A stretch of 64,000 nt of DNA from contig NZ_CP095742.1 of assembly GCF_023078495.1 (NCBI RefSeq), forward strand, positions 4,612,501 to 4,676,500, written 5' to 3'. This stretch comes from Luteibacter aegosomatissinici. Lineage in GTDB: Bacteria > Pseudomonadota > Gammaproteobacteria > Xanthomonadales > Rhodanobacteraceae. Numbering within the stretch: the stretch's first letter is position 1; each line of letters opens with the position of its first letter. A program made the translations under genes and the position numbers. A model generated the notes under the pieces. It was not told the origin of the DNA. It did not search any database and saw nothing but the letters and a program-made list of their open reading frames with translations. Of this stretch, positions 12,297 through 19,230 are shown in pieces.

Positions 12297-12336
12297 ACCA
12301 CGGGGGGCGAGCCGGGCCCCTATGACTTTTTGCCGC

Positions 12337-12366
12337 TTGACACACCGCACAACGGCGGCCTAAGTT
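12337..12366 (+). promoter_or_regulatory. Promoter of the threonine operon
   Basis: A perfect -35 TTGACA (12337-12342) is separated by 18 bp from TAAGTT (12361-12366). The expected start point falls at about 12373, which is the first base of the Thr leader ATG. The same arrangement (TTGACA, 18 bp, TACGTT) precedes the branched-chain leader at 17718. Confidence 0.65.
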
Positions 12367-12372
12367 CGGGCC

Positions 12373-12507
12373 ATGCATCCCAACGCGCCAGCGCTGCGTT
12401 CCACCTGGGCCACTTCCGTGGCCTACGCGCTTGCGTCCACCACCACCGCGACTACGACCACCACTACGACCACTACGGTCGGAGGATCGGAGTCCGCGCG
12501 CGCTTAG
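12373..12507 (+). CDS. thrL: Threonine operon leader (attenuator) peptide
   Basis: A 44-residue ORF whose residues 23-35 are TTTATTTTTTTTT: twelve Thr codons out of thirteen, then VGGSESARA and TAG at 12505. It lies 109 bases before the homoserine dehydrogenase start. The function is transcription attenuation: ribosome stalling at Thr codons when charged tRNA-Thr is scarce should favour read-through into hom-thrB-thrC. Escherichia coli thrL mixes Thr and Ile codons; here only Thr codons occur, which suggests a response to Thr alone. There is no Shine-Dalgarno, and the predicted transcription start coincides with the ATG, so the message may be leaderless. Too short for ordinary gene callers. 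Confidence 0.85.
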   Translation: MHPNAPALRSTWATSVAYALASTTTATTTTTTTTTVGGSESARA

Positions 12508-12520
12508 GTTCCATGTCGCT

Positions 12521-12552
12521 GCCGGCCCGACCTCCCGCAGGACGGGACCGGC
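12521..12552 (+). terminator. Candidate attenuator hairpin of the threonine operon
   Basis: gccggcccg (12521-12529) can pair with cgggaccggc (12543-12552), leaving one bulged A, just after the leader stop. An inner tcccg/cggga stem is also possible. No T-tract follows directly, so this may be one arm of a more complex or Rho-assisted attenuator. The exact terminator/antiterminator pair is not resolved by eye. Confidence 0.4.
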
Positions 12553-12616
12553 GCCGGGATCCATAGCCGAAAACCCTTCTTGCGATGAGTGCCGGGCCTC
12601 CACAGGAGGCTTTACC

Positions 12617-13765
12617 GTGTCCATCGCCGTCGCGTTACCCCGCTCGCCCCTACGTGCCGCGCCCCAACGCGCGGTCGCGCCCCCTCTCGTCGTCAACGTA
12701 GGCGTCATCGGGCCGGGCAAGGTGGGCACCGCCTTCCTGCACCAGCTGCGCCACGCCGCCCCGCGCCTGCTGCGCGAATGCCGCCTGGAACTGCGCCTGC
12801 GCGCCGTCAGCGACAGCCGGCACATGTGGCTGGATTGCGACGACGAGGCCCTGAACGGCCGGATGGGCGGTGCCCAGACCTGGCGCCCGGTGGCGCTGGA
12901 TGACTTCGCCGCCTACGTGGCCGGCCACCAGGGTGAGGCCGCCGTACTGGCCGACTGTACGGCCAGCGATGCGGTCGCCGACCACTACGCCGGCTGGCTA
13001 GCCGCCGGCATCCACGTGGTGACCCCCAACAAGCGCGCCGCCAGCGGCTGCCTCAACCGCTGGCAGGCCATCGCCCGCGCCTCCGATGCCAGCGGCGCCC
13101 GCCTGCATTACGAAGGCACGGTGGGCGCCGGCCTGCCGGTGGTCCAGACCCTGCGCGACCTGATCGACACGGGCGATGAGCTGCAGGCCGTCGAGGGCAT
13201 GCTCTCGGGCACCCTGGCGTGGCTGTTCAACCGCTTTGATGGCTCGGTGCCCTTCTCCGCCCTGGTCCGCGAGGCCCACGCGCTGGGCTACACGGAGCCG
13301 GACCCGCGCGATGACCTTTCCGGTATGGACGTGGCCCGCAAACTGGTGATCCTGGCCCGCGAGGCCGGCGTGGCGCTGTCGCTCGATGACGTGGCCGTGT
13401 CCAGCCTGGTGCCGGCCGAGCTGGCGGAGCTGGGCCGTGAGGACTTCATGGAAGCCCTGCCCGCCATGGATACCCCAATGGCTTCGCTCCTTGCCCAGGC
13501 CCGGGCCGCGGGTGGCGTGCTCCGCCACGTGGCGCGACTGGACCGCGACGGCGCGTCGGTGGGCGTGCAGGTGCTGGAGCGTAGCCATGCCTTCGCCCAT
13601 GGCCAGCTCACCGATAACGTGGTGCGTTTCGCCACGCGCCGATACTGCGACAATGCCCTGGTAGTCCAGGGGCCGGGTGCCGGTCCCGAGGTCACGGCGG
13701 CGGCGGTGTTCACGGACCTGCTGCGCGTGGCCGGCGCCATGGGAGTAAAACGATGCGCATGCTGA
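12617..13765 (+). CDS. hom: Homoserine dehydrogenase, stand-alone catalytic domain
   Basis: Reduces aspartate semialdehyde to homoserine, the branch point to Thr and Met. I chose the GTG at 12617 (382 aa): AGGAGG lies at 12604-12609, seven bases upstream, whereas the longer open frame runs through the leader peptide region. [16 protein letters not shown] (about 27-41) is the nucleotide-binding motif. [20 protein letters not shown] and [26 protein letters not shown] are the conserved catalytic stretches. The sequence resembles the C-terminal half of bifunctional ThrA, but no aspartokinase half is present upstream, only leader and hairpin, and there is no C-terminal ACT domain. Its last 13 bases overlap thrB. 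Confidence 0.9.
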
Positions 13766-14709
13766 AAGAAGACACCTCGCCCCTCGCCCGTACCGATGTC
13801 GCCACCGCCGAGGCCTACGCCAGCGTCGGTAACGTGGGTATCGGCTTCGACATCCTTGGCCACACCGTGGAAGGCGCCGGCGACCGCGCCGAGGTGCGCC
13901 GGATTCCCGAGCGCGAAGTGCGCATCGCCGCCATCCATGGCGTGATCACCGATCTGCCGCTGAAGCCCGAGGACAACACGGCTGGTGCCGCGCTGCTTTC
14001 GATGCTGCGTGGCCTGAACCTGCCTTTCGGCTTTGAGCTCACGCTGCACAAGGGCATCGCGCTGGGTTCCGGCATGGGTGGCTCGGCCGCGTCGTGCGTG
14101 GCCGCCGTCGTCGCCGCGAATGCACTGCTCGATGAACCGCTGCCGCGCGAAGCGTTGTACCCGTTCGCGATGGATGGTGAGGTCGTTGCCAGTGGTAGCC
14201 GCCACGGCGATAACCTCGGCCCCATGTTGCTGGGCGGCCTGGTCCTGGCCACGGATAAGCGGCTCGTGCGCGTTCCCGTACCGGCCGAGTGGCATTGCGC
14301 GTTGGTGCACCCCCACGTGGTGCTCGAGACCCGCAAGGCACGTGCCGCGCTCGCAGGCAACTACGCGCTCGGTGAGTTCGTCGCACAAAGCGCCAACCTG
14401 GCCATGGTGCTGGCCGGTTGCTACCGCGGTGAAGCCGCACTGGTACGCGAAGGCCTTTCCGATGTGCTGGTGGAACCACGCCGTGCCCCGCTAATCCCCG
14501 GCTTCTATGCGGTAAAGCAGGCCGCGCTCGACCACGGCGCCTTCGGTGCCAGCATCTCCGGTGCCGGCCCCAGCGTGTTTGGCTGGTTCGAAGACCGCGC
14601 CGCCGCCGTAGCCGCCGCGCACGATATGCAGGCCGCGTTCCGCCATGCCGGCCACCGCAGCGATGCCCTGGTCGCGCCGATCGACGGCCCTGCGGCGCGA
14701 GTGGTGTAA
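13753..14709 (+). CDS. thrB: Homoserine kinase
   Basis: Phosphorylates homoserine to O-phosphohomoserine with ATP (cytoplasm). 318 aa, a GHMP kinase: [20 protein letters not shown] near the N-terminus and the phosphate-binding [10 protein letters not shown] at 105-114, with the C-terminal [16 protein letters not shown]. Start ATG at 13753 has GGGAG seven bases upstream inside the 3' end of hom, so the two genes overlap by 13 bases and are probably translationally coupled. A second in-frame ATG two codons later is an alternative. The stop is two bases before thrC. Confidence 0.96.
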
Positions 14710-14711
14710 CG

Positions 14712-15992
14712 ATGCGCTATGTGAGTACGCGCGGCGGTGCCGCGCCTGTGTCGCTTTCTTCCGCGATCGCCACCGGGCTTGCGCCGGATGGCGGGCTTTA
14801 CGTACCTGAAGCCATGCCGCGCCTTGGCAAGCTGCCTTCCGGTGGCTACCTGGCCAGCACCGCGGCAGCCATGCTCGAGCCCTTCTTCGAAGGCGATGCA
14901 CTGGCGGGTGAACTGGAGGCGATTTGTGCGGAAGCCTTCTCGCACCCCGCGCCGCGGCGCGAGCTGAAGATCGCCGGCGCGCATGTGCTGGAACTGTTCC
15001 ATGGCCCCACCGCGGCATTCAAGGATTTCGGCGCGCGCTTTCTTGCGGCCTGCATCGCGCGGCTGCGTGCAGGTGAAAACCGGGCGCTGACCATCCTTGT
15101 GGCCACCTCGGGCGATACGGGTGCGGCTGTCGGCGCGGCGTTCCACGGTGTCCCCGGTGTTCGCGTCGCCATCCTCTACCCGGATAACCGCGTCTCGCCA
15201 CGCCAGGCCCACCAGCTCGGCAGCTTTGGTGGGAACGTTCGCGCGATTCGCGTGGAAGGCAGCTTCGATGACTGCCAGCGGCTGGTGAAAGGCGCATTCG
15301 GCGACCCATCGTTGCAGGCCGACGTGCCGCTCTCATCCGCGAACAGCATCAGCCTCGGTCGCTTGCTGCCCCAAATGGCGTACTTCGGTCACGCGGCGCT
15401 ACATGCCGATGACAAGCCCATGAACGTCATCGTGCCAACCGGCAATCTCGGCAACGCCGTGGCTTGCCTGTGGGCGCGTGAGATCGGCCTGCCCATCGGC
15501 GAGGTCGTCTTCGCCTGTAACGCCAACGATACGCTTCCCGAGTTTTTCGGCGGCCAGCCCTACCGGGCACGCGATGCGATTGCCACCATCGCCAACGCCA
15601 TGGATGTGGGTGCGCCCAGCAACTTCGAGCGTCTGGTCCACCTTTTCGGCAGCGAGGAAGCGACCCGTTTCAACGGCGCCGCCCACGGCATCGACGACGC
15701 CACGATCCGCGATGTGATCCGCCGCCATGCCGCCACGGATGGCGAGGTGTTCTGCCCGCACACGGCGACGGCGATCCGCGTGTTCGAGCAACGGCGCATC
15801 GCGGGTGATTCGCGGGCATGGACCATGGCCGCGACGGCACACCCGGCCAAGTTCGAGACGGTCGTCGAACCGTTGATCGGGCGACCGGTGGATGTGCCTG
15901 AGGCACTGGCGACGATGCTCGGGAGAACCGCCAGCGCCGAGCCGCTGGCGGCTGATCAACGACTATTCGGCGATTGGCTGCGTAGCTGGTAA
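14712..15992 (+). CDS. thrC: Threonine synthase
   Basis: Converts O-phosphohomoserine to threonine with pyridoxal phosphate. 426 aa, close to the 428 aa of the Escherichia coli enzyme. It begins MRYVSTRGGAAPVSL, with the DGGLYVPE stretch typical of ThrC. HGPTAAFKDFGARFL holds the PLP-binding Lys104, and VATSGDTGAAVG and VPTGNLGN form the cofactor phosphate site. It follows thrB by two bases and closes the operon. It converges with the porin gene, the two stops being eight bases apart. Confidence 0.96.
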   Translation: MRYVSTRGGAAPVSLSSAIATGLAPDGGLYVPEAMPRLGKLPSGGYLASTAAAMLEPFFEGDALAGELEAICAEAFSHPAPRRELKIAGAHVLELFHGPTAAFKDFGARFLAACIARLRAGENRALTILVATSGDTGAAVGAAFHGVPGVRVAILYPDNRVSPRQAHQLGSFGGNVRAIRVEGSFDDCQRLVKGAFGDPSLQADVPLSSANSISLGRLLPQMAYFGHAALHADDKPMNVIVPTGNLGNAVACLWAREIGLPIGEVVFACNANDTLPEFFGGQPYRARDAIATIANAMDVGAPSNFERLVHLFGSEEATRFNGAAHGIDDATIRDVIRRHAATDGEVFCPHTATAIRVFEQRRIAGDSRAWTMAATAHPAKFETVVEPLIGRPVDVPEALATMLGRTASAEPLAADQRLFGDWLRSW

Positions 15993-16000
15993 CGCCTGCC

Positions 16001-17398
16001 TCAGAACTTGTAACTCAGCATCAACCGGTTATTGGTCCAGGGCTGGTTCCCTGGATTCAGGTTGTTGTTCCCGCCCACGGTGTGTTCCCAGCGGTCACGC
16101 AGTTGCAGGCCCTTCAGCAGCATGTCGAGCTTCCACACGATGTCGACATAGACATCGTGGCTGGTGCCACGAAGCACCGTATCGTAATGCGCGTACGAAG
16201 CGATCAGCTGCAGGTCGTCGTGCAGGAAATTGTATTGGGCACGCGCTTTCCAGGCATGCCCCGCGCCGAGCTCCACCAGGCCGCGCAGCATCGACGTGGT
16301 GTAGAGCGGATCGGTCGCGTAGCTGTTGGTGTAAGGCGAGATGATGGCGCCCGCCCCGGCCGCATTGGTATCGCTGGCAAGCTTGTTGTACGAGATGTCG
16401 AACTTCGCCTTGCCGACGCCGACACCCGCATCCACGCCCCACGCTTTCGCATCGACACGCTCGCCGGCGAGGCCGGTGATCTTTGTCTGCGTATCGACGA
16501 TGACATTGTCCGACCCGCTCGTTTCGCGCACCAGCTGCGCACCGACGAAGGGCTTCAGCATCGTTCCCGTGGGAATGGTGTACATGCCATCCGCATAGCC
16601 CAGGCGGCCAAAATGCTCGAAATCGTAGTACCAGGCCTGTGCGGCCAGGCCACCCCCGGCGTAGGTACTGCCGATGGCGGTGGTGCCACCCTGCGAACGC
16701 GCGCTGGCAGGGAGCGATCCGTTGTTCCCGTACATGCTGTCGCCGTGGTAGGTCGACGGATAGTAGACGTTATCGTCGTTGTACGATTCCGACGTGCGGC
16801 TCTTCCAGCGCAGGGTGCGGATCGCGTAGATATCCCAGCCCTTCGCCGGCTTGAAATCAGCCATGGCGCCCTGGTAGGACGCCGGGATGATGCGCGAATC
16901 CGACTGGCCCATCCAGGGCGTATTGAGGTACTGATCACCCCCGCGCACGGTCACCCACGGGTTGGTGTATTCGGCATAAGCCTGGGTGATGCCGTCGATG
17001 ACGTTGCCCGGACCCATCAGCGAGGTATCGACGCGCCCCGCGTCGTTGGACTGGGTACCGAACGAATGGGCGGAGAACCCTGTCGCGACCAGGCTGAAGC
17101 CGCCGACCTTGCCGCTCTTGACCGTAAGCAGGCCGGCAAGCGAATTGGCGAACTGGTCCTTGCTCGAGGGGTTGTCGTAGTTGCGGTCGAAGCGATAGAG
17201 GCGCACCTCCCCGCTGACGGTCGCATCACGGAAGAAGTCATCCGCATGGGCCCCGCCGGCGATGCAAGCCAGCCCCACGGCAAGACAGCCAGCCATGAGG
17301 CCCCGCCGGCCGGGAAGCATCCGCGCCCGACGGTACGCCGGTGCAAATCCACTGGCCCGTACGGACACGGACTCTTTTTCGGTCAGGCTCACGGCCAC
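16001..17398 (-). CDS. OprD-family outer-membrane porin
   Basis: A substrate-selective outer-membrane channel of the OprD type (basic amino acids, peptides or aromatic acids in characterised members; substrate unknown here). The frame opens with GTG at 17398 (465 aa) with AAGGG upstream. The actual signal peptide, MAGCLAVGLACIAGGAHA, begins only at residue 35, so the start may lie further in, though no better ribosome site is seen. The mature part begins DDFFRDATVSGEVRLYRFDRNY. Family features include FSLVATGFSAHSFGTQ, a YLNTPWMGQSDSRIIPASYQGA stretch and the C-terminal NNRLMLSYKF with terminal Phe. A monocistronic gene facing thrC. Confidence 0.85.
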   Translation of the reverse strand: MAVSLTEKESVSVRASGFAPAYRRARMLPGRRGLMAGCLAVGLACIAGGAHADDFFRDATVSGEVRLYRFDRNYDNPSSKDQFANSLAGLLTVKSGKVGGFSLVATGFSAHSFGTQSNDAGRVDTSLMGPGNVIDGITQAYAEYTNPWVTVRGGDQYLNTPWMGQSDSRIIPASYQGAMADFKPAKGWDIYAIRTLRWKSRTSESYNDDNVYYPSTYHGDSMYGNNGSLPASARSQGGTTAIGSTYAGGGLAAQAWYYDFEHFGRLGYADGMYTIPTGTMLKPFVGAQLVRETSGSDNVIVDTQTKITGLAGERVDAKAWGVDAGVGVGKAKFDISYNKLASDTNAAGAGAIISPYTNSYATDPLYTTSMLRGLVELGAGHAWKARAQYNFLHDDLQLIASYAHYDTVLRGTSHDVYVDIVWKLDMLLKGLQLRDRWEHTVGGNNNLNPGNQPWTNNRLMLSYKF

Positions 17399-17717
17399 GA
17401 CACCCTTATAGTTGCCAAAGAAACAACCGGGACGATAACACGGCCGCCATAGGGCCTATTAGGAAGGGGCTACTGCGGCCAGGCGAATGGCGTGCAACCA
17501 CAAGCGATCGCCGAACAGCTCCGCCTCGACGCTTCAGTCTTCGTTCCGGCGTTGTTTCACATGCAACCAATGGCGGCGAGCCGTGGCATTTCCGGTGCTC
17601 ACTGCGGTGCATACCACTTACCCGTAACCAGCATTTCCACGCGGTCCCGCGACCAAACCACGGGACGGACGGATAGCCGTCCAAACGCTCCTAGGAAAAT
17701 TCTTTCAGCGAAAACTG
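17399..17717. other. Intergenic region between porin and branched-chain operon
   Basis: About 320 bases with no gene. It must contain the leftward porin promoter and any upstream control sites of the rightward leu-ilv promoter. A short inverted repeat ggacgg...ccgtcc lies at about 17664-17685. I see no coding sequence or recognisable operator. Confidence 0.5.
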
Positions 17718-17747
17718 TTGACAGGCGTCAAACGGGTGACGTACGTT
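17718..17747 (+). promoter_or_regulatory. Promoter of the leu-ilv operon
   Basis: Perfect -35 TTGACA (17718-17723), 18-bp spacer, then TACGTT (17742-17747). The predicted start at about 17754-17755 coincides with the leader-peptide ATG at 17755. Geometry matches the threonine-operon promoter. Confidence 0.65.
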
Positions 17748-17754
17748 CGACCGC

Positions 17755-17883
17755 ATGACGCAGCGCACCACCCATGGCCGCTTTTCCCTGAATCGACTTA
17801 CCAAGGTCGACGGAAAGCTGCGTCTCGGCGGCGGCCTCCTTCTTATTAACCTTGTACTTATTACCTGCGGAGGTGCGGGCTAA
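17755..17883 (+). CDS. Branched-chain amino-acid operon leader (attenuator) peptide
   Basis: A 42-residue ORF containing LLLINLVLIT (residues 28-37): five Leu, two Ile and one Val codon packed together, then CGGAG and TAA at 17881. It is followed within 50 bases by a strong intrinsic terminator and then leuA. This is the classical ilv/leu attenuation design: starvation for any of the three amino acids stalls the ribosome and lets RNA polymerase read into the ten-kilobase operon. No Shine-Dalgarno is present, and the promoter position suggests a leaderless message. The first 22 residues have no obvious role. Confidence 0.88.
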   Translation: MTQRTTHGRFSLNRLTKVDGKLRLGGGLLLINLVLITCGGAG

Positions 17884-17931
17884 GGGCAAGTGTCCAGGTG
17901 AAACGAAAATAACCTGAAGACTCCTTAAGAA

Positions 17932-17963
17932 CCCCGCACCCGGACACGGATGCGGGGTTTTTT
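17932..17963 (+). terminator. Attenuator terminator of the leu-ilv operon
   Basis: ccccgca (17932-17938) pairs with tgcgggg (17951-17957), followed by six T. Two competing pairings are visible: ggtgcggg at the end of the leader ORF (17872-17879) can pair with cccgcacc at the terminator's left arm, and gtgtcc (17890-17895) with ggacac in its loop (17942-17947). A ribosome stalled on the LLLINLVLI codons or reading on would shift between these structures. Confidence 0.85.
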
Positions 17964-18000: not shown

Positions 18001-19230
18001 ATGAATCCAGCACACCAGGGCAGTACACACGGCGACGTCGAAAGCGACGTAGGCCGCGTGCGTATCTTCGACACCACCTTGCGCGACGGCGAGCAGGCCC
18101 CTGGGTTTTCCATGGACCGGCGCGCCAAACTGCGCATGGCCCAAGCCCTGGAAGACCTGGGCGTCGATATCATCGAAGCGGGGTTTCCGCAGGCTTCACC
18201 CGATGATTTCGCCGCCGTCGCCGAGATCGCAAGGACACTGAAACGCCCCACGGTCGCCGCGCTGGCGCGATGCCAACCCGGTGACATCGATGCCGCCGGA
18301 AGGGCCCTGGAAGGCGCAAGGCATTCACGGATCCACCTGTTCCTGTCCACCTCTCCCCTGCACCGCGAACACAAGCTGGGGAAATCAAAGCAAGAAGTGA
18401 TCGATATCGCCGCCACGGCGATCGCAAGGGCCAAGGCCCTGGCCCACGAAGTTGAATTCTCCGCCGAAGATGCCCTGCGCACCGAGCCGGATTACCTCGC
18501 CGAGATCTTCTCGGTCGCCGTTGAAGCCGGCGCCTGCGTGCTCAACGCCCCCGACACCGTCGGTTACACCACCCCCGCCGAAATCACCGAGATGTTCCGC
18601 TACCTGCAGGCGAACGTGCGCGGTGCGGATAAGGTCATCTTCTCCGCGCATTGCCACGATGACCTGGGCATGGCGGTGGCGAACAGCCTGGCCGCGATCA
18701 GCGCCGGCGCCCGCCAGGTGGAATGCACGATCAATGGCATCGGCGAGCGCGCCGGCAACGCCGCGCTGGAAGAAATCGTCATGGCGCTGCACACGCGCCG
18801 GCCGCTGTTCAAGCTCGATACCGGCATCGTCACCCAGCACCTGTACCCGACCTCGCGCCTGCTCACCGAAGTGACCGGCCAGGCCGTGCCGCGCAACAAG
18901 GCCATCGTGGGCGATAACGCCTTCGCGCACGAATCGGGCATCCACCAGCACGGCATGCTCAAGCACCGCGGCACCTACGAAATCATGAGTCCGCAGGATG
19001 TCGGCGCGAAGACCTCGCTGGTCCTCGGCAAGCATTCCGGTCGCCACGCCCTGCGCCAGCGCCTGGTCGAGCTCGAGTACGAGGTCGATGAAACCACGCT
19101 GGATACCGTCTTCGAGCGTTTCAAGGTCGTCGCCGACCGCCAGCGCTCTGTCACCAACGATGACCTCGTCGCCCTGATGGGCGCATACGAGGCTGAAAGC
19201 GAGACCGCGGCCGTCGCGGTCCAGTCCTGA
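18001..19230 (+). CDS. leuA: 2-isopropylmalate synthase lacking the C-terminal regulatory domain
   Basis: Condenses 2-oxoisovalerate with acetyl-CoA, the first committed step to leucine. I use the ATG at 18001 (409 aa; ggagcc upstream); the open frame reaches back into the attenuator. The TIM-barrel catalytic domain shows DTTLRDGEQAPGFSMD (24-39), HCHDDLGMAVAN with metal His residues, and NGIGERAGNAALEEIVMAL; the accessory helices follow with HESGIHQHGMLKHR. Usual LeuA proteins are about 515 aa, and the leucine-binding LeuA dimer domain (roughly the last 120 aa) is absent here. The enzyme may thus be insensitive to leucine, with control left to attenuation. A related synthase (citramalate/homocitrate) is possible, but position at the head of a leu operon favours LeuA. 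Confidence 0.88.
   Translation: MNPAHQGSTHGDVESDVGRVRIFDTTLRDGEQAPGFSMDRRAKLRMAQALEDLGVDIIEAGFPQASPDDFAAVAEIARTLKRPTVAALARCQPGDIDAAGRALEGARHSRIHLFLSTSPLHREHKLGKSKQEVIDIAATAIARAKALAHEVEFSAEDALRTEPDYLAEIFSVAVEAGACVLNAPDTVGYTTPAEITEMFRYLQANVRGADKVIFSAHCHDDLGMAVANSLAAISAGARQVECTINGIGERAGNAALEEIVMALHTRRPLFKLDTGIVTQHLYPTSRLLTEVTGQAVPRNKAIVGDNAFAHESGIHQHGMLKHRGTYEIMSPQDVGAKTSLVLGKHSGRHALRQRLVELEYEVDETTLDTVFERFKVVADRQRSVTNDDLVALMGAYEAESETAAVAVQS

Follow-up and report, generated by a model that had tools for sequence, protein, structure and literature searches.

We analysed a 64,000-nucleotide (nt) stretch of the Luteibacter aegosomatissinici genome (contig NZ_CP095742.1, positions 4,612,501 to 4,676,500 of the forward strand), hereafter the window, with positions counted from its first letter. 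Two genes in it, a homoserine dehydrogenase gene (here called thrA) and leuA, are each preceded by a short open reading frame (ORF) which would encode an amino-acid leader peptide, and both leaders carry one and the same promoter arrangement, which would place the 5′ end of the messenger RNA (mRNA) at or next to the start codon. The two operon starts are laid out as follows.

12337–12342, plus strand: -35 element (TTGACA) of the thr leader promoter, from a pattern scan of the window.
12361–12366, plus strand: -10 element (TAAGTT) of the thr leader promoter, with a predicted start site at or next to the A of the ATG at 12373.
12373–12507, plus strand: thr leader peptide ORF, 44 amino acids with a Thr run; similar short ORFs lie upstream of the same gene in relatives.
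12439–12477, plus strand: thr control codons, 12 Thr in 13 codons, including the rare ACT.
12617–13765, plus strand: homoserine dehydrogenase gene (thrA), for which homologues were found.
17718–17723, plus strand: -35 element (TTGACA) of the leu leader promoter, from the same scan.
17742–17747, plus strand: -10 element (TACGTT) of the leu leader promoter, with transcription predicted to start on the A of the ATG at 17755 or 1 nt ahead of it.
17755–17883, plus strand: leu leader peptide ORF, 42 amino acids, ending GGGLLLINLVLITCGGAG, with counterparts in relatives.
17836–17865, plus strand: leu control codons, LLLINLVLIT, mostly rare codons (CTT, ATT, GTA).
18001–19230, plus strand: leuA, 2-isopropylmalate synthase.

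The GTG at 12617 as the start of thrA and position 18001 as the start of leuA are our own choices. In ten neighbouring genes the codons CTT, ATT and GTA have shares of 0.06, 0.03 and 0.05 within their codon families. A terminator-like hairpin followed by a T-run (12303–12321) lies just 5′ of the thr promoter and perhaps marks the end of the upstream gene; the scan for such hairpins was at chance overall, with four found, this one included, and 4.2 in shuffled sequence.

At the thr leader TTGACA is followed by 18 bp, TAAGTT and 6 bases before the ATG at 12373, and at the leu leader by 18 bp, TACGTT and 7 bases before the ATG at 17755. The identical geometry that the first-pass annotation had described (a perfect TTGACA, an 18-bp spacer, TA[A/C]GTT and 6 or 7 bases to the ATG) is thus present. 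The pattern TTGACA-N17-19-TANNNT-N5-8-ATG occurs twice in the window against 0.02 expected, and two or more matches were seen in 0 of 100 shuffles. Genome-wide (4,994,364 bp) it has three matches and none in the reversed control; two are the thr and leu leaders and the third (L001) lies about 5 kb from trpE, with no amino-acid-run leader among its ORFs. A generic promoter scan, at its thresholds, reported neither leader promoter. The signal within this one genome is modest and it is therefore the cross-species comparison that carries the case. We also searched 482 kb made up of the window and 25 loci, where TTGACA-N30-32-ATG occurs 28 times, 27 of them at leaders, against a background of 0.38 per spacing; since all 25 loci were selected around leuA, this count shows that the geometry is absent from neighbouring genes and is not a measure of leader enrichment. 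A chance origin of the geometry is ruled out by the window, genome and 482-kb counts, and so is the idea that genes in these loci commonly have promoters of this kind, as the neighbouring genes in the 482 kb do not carry the geometry.

In relatives, a Thr-run ORF was found in 52 of 69 loci upstream of thrA and all 52 have TTGAC 28–34 nt before an in-frame ATG; more than one ATG candidate was present in 29 of the 52, and in this and the following survey the ATG with TTGAC at that distance was preferred where there was one. Two of the 52 are duplicates, and in the 50 unique leaders the distance from TTGACN to the ATG is 29 nt in one, 30 in 24, 31 in 20, 32 in four and 33 in one, so that 44 of the 50 fall at 30–31 nt. 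Ten of the 69 loci were chosen from a set of 20 named loci on the strength of a leader seen in the Thr-run scan; in the ten not chosen, no leader with the spacing was present. A further eleven loci outside the 69 (L105–L109 and L111–L116) gave no Thr-run ORF, the stretch probably ending short of the leader. Both surveys took ATG starts only, with which both window leaders begin, and would miss leaders with other starts; the peptides found are 24–63 amino acids long. In one genome, two adjacent homoserine dehydrogenase matches have identical scores (G067:C2:240269-243047), perhaps owing to a duplication or an assembly artefact.

The branched-chain amino acid (BCAA; Leu/Ile/Val) leaders gave a similar result. 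A Leu/Ile/Val-run ORF together with a terminator-like sequence was present in 73 of 103 leuA or ilvC loci, making 75 groups by stop codon, 71 of them unique, and TTGAC stands 28–34 nt before the ATG in 69 of the 71. The two groups without it are L027, which has TTGCTG about 30 nt before the ATG, and the plus strand of L224, which is probably no leader. Among 30 further ilvC loci (L187–L216) there were four candidates, three with the spacing (L187, L188 and L214; 29–30 nt) and one without it (L191) which is probably no leader, bringing the candidates with the spacing to 72 of 75. The distance in the 69 unique leaders is 29 nt in three, 30 in 15, 31 in 47, 32 in three and 33 in one (62 of 69 at 30–31 nt). 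At unchanged distance, most -10 elements read TA-N-G-G/T-T in family f1 and TTYTCT in family f2; f1 presumably corresponds to Rhodanobacteraceae and f2 to Xanthomonadaceae. The nearest named LeuA locus in the scan is that of Luteibacter sp. dw_328, with 88% identity. At L251 each strand of a 1-kb region has a leader-like ORF, the TTGAC distances being 29 and 31 nt; these may be a divergent leu and ilv pair.

Among 55 loci without an assignment to the order there were 20 with a hit: the geometry is present in 11 and absent from seven, and two (L051 and L075) were dropped as likely false positives. Four of the 11 (L024, L025, L029 and L033) were already among the 69, which leaves seven additional loci, and titles such as ‘Proteobacteria bacterium’ (L024, L059 and L083) still allow membership of the order. 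The same spacing is found in loci titled Woeseiaceae and Chromatiales and in L070, L078 and L081, whose leuA leaders have TTGACC 30–31 nt before the ATG. Because the last three, which we take from their genera to be planctomycetes, keep the spacing, the rule may span phyla. The suggestion that a design rule rather than chance lies behind the two promoters is therefore borne out by 52 thr leaders, 72 of 75 Leu/Ile/Val candidates and seven additional loci whose titles do not place them in the order. For other amino acids the run test found no his leader at 44 hisG loci (14 regions and 30 loci; 61 genomes with a match) and at 36 trpE loci (6 and 30; 60 genomes with a match) gave only unconvincing Trp-containing ORFs.

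We further examined the bases before and after the leader start codons. The duplex energy with the anti-Shine–Dalgarno (anti-SD) sequence is -5.0 for the thr leader, -2.8 for the leu leader, -10.3 for thrA and -5.8 for leuA; the thr leader value is near that of leuA, yet the bases responsible lie at or upstream of the -10 element and would therefore be outside a leaderless RNA. Energies of -6 kcal/mol or lower were obtained for 8% of the 119 unique thr and BCAA leaders, 11% of shuffled sequences and 98% of 50 thrA starts. An SD 4-mer is present in 12 of the 119 leaders vs all 50 thrA starts, the latter having been selected with an SD motif so that this count is partly by construction. The leaders thus behave like shuffled sequence and unlike the thrA starts, in keeping with the earlier statement that neither leader ATG has an SD. 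C stands at -1 in 92% of the 119 leaders vs 59% of 254 control starts, which is suggestive only, since it is frequent in control and thrA starts too. CA-rich starts are reported to aid leaderless translation; in the seven codons after the ATG we counted 3.94 CA per 21 nt in BCAA leaders, 2.16 in thr leaders and 1.68 in controls, with related sequences each counted. Positions 17755–17775 and their counterparts in relatives hold a start module, ATG-NCG-CAG-CGC-AAC-AGC-CAC, common to BCAA leaders of several families; it is conserved past the needs of a regulatory codon run, MTQRNSH-like starts being frequent. From the promoter geometry, both leaders are in all likelihood leaderless or nearly so.

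Past the control codons, the thr leader region holds the following predicted RNA elements.

12477–12485, plus strand: segment A (GGTCGGAGG), which abuts the Thr run and can pair with segment B (fold of L087, alignment).
12521–12552, plus strand: segments B and C, a GC-rich hairpin past the leader stop with no U-tract behind it (fold, alignment).
12594–12612, plus strand: hairpin GGGCCTCC-ACA-GGAGGCTT, which would sequester the thrA SD (stem scan, covariation).

No U-tract terminator was found at thr: a T-run of at least four occurs between leader stop and thrA in three of 50 loci, each time just past the leader stop and 5′ of segment B. Rfam Thr_leader (RF00506) gave no match at 12330–12640, where the only hit was SAM-Chlorobi, below threshold, and no Rfam family reached its gathering threshold anywhere in the window. 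For the whole thr leader region the predicted fold is only slightly better than that of shuffles, 9 of 200 of which did as well. A simple stem scan of the 42 nt 5′ of thrA, counted by eye, gave the SD hairpin as the longest stem in 38 of 50 loci; in three (L099, L134 and L137) the SD pairs with another partner, and in nine the longest stem lies elsewhere. Across 48 distinct sequences of the SD hairpin 90.4% of the cells pair, the central U-A pair being missing in 12; L125 was omitted from the alignments A1 and A2 (49 of 50 sequences). Cells with a double change number 10 vs 2.8 ± 1.3 in shuffles (0 of 500 reach this), with fewer in all slid versions, and pairs with a double change number four vs 2.1 (25 of 500 reach this); these covariation figures are not probabilities and kinship among the sequences can inflate them. 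A translational attenuation of thrA is suggested because a U-tract terminator is absent and the SD lies in a hairpin with compensatory changes. On this element the first-pass annotation was right as to the geometry and the missing leader SD, and had overlooked both the absent terminator and the SD-sequestering hairpin.

We propose that thr uses four segments as in trp, with the SD as the fourth. Pairing of A with B and of D with the SD would be the closed state, and a ribosome stalled on A would allow B to pair with D, opening the SD so that thrA is translated, as modelled in some relatives only. An earlier version of this switch, in which A was free in starvation, had the wrong sign, as the Thr run abuts A, and was dropped. 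SD accessibility against ribosome position was nearly flat (mean 0.16–0.22), and we therefore used a block model in ViennaRNA, in which segments are masked; segment A was defined on L120 and may suit family f1 poorly. In this model, masking A made SD opening easier in 17 and harder in five of 23 loci with a bifunctional ThrA, and easier in 13 and harder in six of the 27 other loci; in the window masking A did not ease it. Closure of the SD was restored only by masking B.

The leu leader ORF carries the regulatory-codon run expected of an attenuator, and its control region has two predicted elements.

17872–17879, plus strand: GGTGCGGG, a candidate antiterminator strand with which the leader ORF closes, complementary to the 5′ arm of the terminator.
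17930–17963, plus strand: intrinsic terminator hairpin with U-tract before leuA (fold).

Folding of the region gives a strong terminator with its U-tract and an early hairpin, and only two of 200 shuffles fold as well. Rfam Leu_leader (RF00512) scores 14.5 bits, below its gathering threshold of 50, and Rfam Thr_leader matches the leu terminator weakly (18.9 of 55 bits). In a raw count, 62 of 69 BCAA leaders have a terminator and, close to where the leader ORF ends, a complementary stretch of 6 nt or more, which in 41 is GGTGCGGG itself; by this test six of the remaining seven have no complementary stretch and one has no terminator. The leu leader therefore has the anatomy of classical transcription attenuation, its function being read from complementarity. 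A stalled ribosome would leave GGTGCGGG free to pair with the 5′ arm of the terminator, so that leuA is transcribed, and fast translation would cover GGTGCGGG, so that transcription ends. A palindrome-like GGACGGATAGCCGTCC (17667–17682), possibly a regulator site, stands about 35 bp 5′ of the leu -35 element; a similar site, by a post hoc pattern counted by eye, lies 5′ of the leu leader promoter in 28 of 39 family-f1-type loci.

These observations lead to the following picture. Both operons would begin with an attenuator leader peptide whose mRNA very probably has its 5′ end on the AUG or about one base away from it. With no SD, a ribosome would bind at that end and trail RNA polymerase through the run of Thr or Leu/Ile/Val codons, and a start codon fixed at +1 would set the ribosome-polymerase distance, which may be its purpose. 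On a wider reading, possible rather than probable, the leaderless Thr leader of this order would sense charged Thr-transfer RNA and switch thrA translation, not its transcription, between A:B with D:SD and B:D, the Leu/Ile/Val leaders would join the same start to a classical terminator, and leaderless leaders would be the default in this and several unrelated lineages, with the CA-rich first codons as a loading signal. Initiation by whole 70S ribosomes and a coupling to the general translation state, which none of these results support, would be a further inference, as the first-pass annotation had also treated the functional meaning.

Several results speak against this picture. With the -35 element relaxed to TTGAC the genome holds six matches vs six in the control, which is chance level, so that the single-genome signal depends on a perfect -35; TTGACA-N29-32-ATG alone has 30 matches vs 21. 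No thr leader was found in 17 of the 69 loci, where some stretches may stop short of it, and seven candidate Leu leaders, among the 20 loci with a hit outside the assigned order, do not have the geometry. The -10 element of family f2 (TTYTCT type) is far from consensus, and C at -1 occurs also in 41 of 50 thrA starts. In the literature searched, which left out most subscription papers, we found no mapped start sites for leaders of this order. As to the modelled thr switch, a clear flip to B:D occurs only in 10 of the 23 bifunctional-ThrA loci (L120–L129), four of them near-identical, and SD opening is as easy with the ribosome at the stop codon (state S2) as with a stalled one (6.41 vs 6.46 kcal/mol). 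In the 27 other loci the SD is easier to open in the stalled than in the B-masked state in nine and harder in 11, and the window SD hairpin is predicted to be paired in all four states, at opening costs of 11.2, 12.0, 8.1 and 12.1 kcal/mol.

Given these state comparisons, we put translational control of thrA at about an even chance, a slightly better reading than termination. That the thr element works by Rho-dependent or U-less termination and not on the SD is quite possible, if rated below even: there is a strong B:C hairpin past the leader stop, the window SD hairpin stays paired in every modelled state, and in the available portion of the Streptomyces lividans report there are leaders without U-tracts whose termination is unclear (PMC8079986). 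The compensatory changes in the SD hairpin would be left unexplained by termination alone.

It is equally a serious contender, though short of probable, that the leaders are leaderless and that what is constrained is the 5′ end of the RNA, its initially transcribed sequence or the timing behind RNA polymerase, rather than 70S initiation and its coupling to translation state. The first codons of the BCAA leaders, CA-rich and alike, and the early hairpin in the leu leader fold agree with this, as does Sinorhizobium meliloti trpL, where, in the parts of the report available, leaderless and SD-bearing constructs gave equal peptide accumulation (PMC7298713). The absence of an SD is predicted equally by the 70S reading and nothing here tells the two apart. 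Plain inheritance, in which a few ancestral leaders kept their promoter and there is no rule, is unlikely; many of the loci are related and BCAA leaders often share MTQRNSH-like starts, but no common sequence is evident between thr and BCAA leaders, spacers differ, and the same spacing occurs in Woeseiaceae, Chromatiales and the three presumed planctomycete loci, a comparison made without a tree. Very unlikely is a start farther upstream at another promoter, with TTGACA as a secondary or regulator site and ordinary short 5′ untranslated regions (UTRs) at the leaders: the leaderless starts are predictions from geometry, the f2 -10 element is non-consensus, the generic scan reported neither promoter, and Escherichia coli leuL, of the same operon function, has GGAG and a TTGACA 57 nt before its ATG, but against this stand a spacing of 29–33 nt in 119 unique leaders, SD matches not above the shuffled level and the terminator-like hairpin preceding the thr promoter, even if that scan was at chance.

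In textbook attenuation SD-driven loading and a pause hairpin keep ribosome and polymerase in step; a conserved rule of a start codon at +1, if true, would be another way to set their spacing. It would also provide a search key for unannotated leader peptides (TTGACA, about 30 nt, ATG, amino-acid run), and the window would be a candidate for a pair of neighbouring biosynthetic leaders of which one acts on translation and the other on transcription.

In ermC-type translational attenuation a hairpin holds the SD of the structural gene. SD-sequestering T-boxes of ileS are described in Actinobacteria, according to the accessible part of PMC1262725, and the thr element is like both systems in having the structural-gene SD within a hairpin (PMC1262725 for ileS). 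It is unlike them in being biosynthetic and in having a predicted leaderless leader peptide before the SD hairpin, with a switch that is modelled. E. coli K-12 leuL and thrL serve the same operons with the same amino-acid logic and differ in their starts, as leuL has its TTGACA at 57 nt and a GGAG, and thrL has no TTGAC within 70 nt upstream. In Campylobacter jejuni, the search for LeuL, TrpL and MetL leader ORFs used the presence of a ribosome binding site as a criterion, unlike here, and the same study predicts leaderless genes by -10-N5-9-ATG, close to the present geometry, as far as its available text goes (PMC3847290). In the same restricted literature we found no paper that deals with leaderless leaders of amino-acid operons in this order; the available portion of a terminator survey does not use the word ‘leaderless’ (PMC2965389), and that of a Xanthomonas small RNA paper mentions mapped start sites and not these leaders (PMC3771888).

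The S. meliloti trpL system (rnTrpL/peTrpL) is alike in that its attenuator RNA begins at the ATG of the leader ORF; it differs in its amino acid, tryptophan, in its host, an alphaproteobacterium, and in that both its leader RNA and its peptide have additional functions in trans, all in the excerpts available (PMC7298713). In S. lividans seven of eight described leader peptides are leaderless (leuL1, leuL2, trpL1, trpL2, ilvL, metL and thrL), being like the window leaders amino-acid leader peptides without a 5′ UTR, some without a U-tract terminator, as given in the portion available (PMC8079986). There, the host is an actinobacterium, the starts come from transcriptome data and the peptides have 12–29 amino acids (PMC8079986); here we have a proteobacterium, starts deduced from promoter geometry, peptides of 24–63 amino acids and one promoter-to-ATG spacing in 119 unique leaders. 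Leaderless leader peptides are thus already known from Streptomyces and Sinorhizobium, and the leaders described here are a variant of them.

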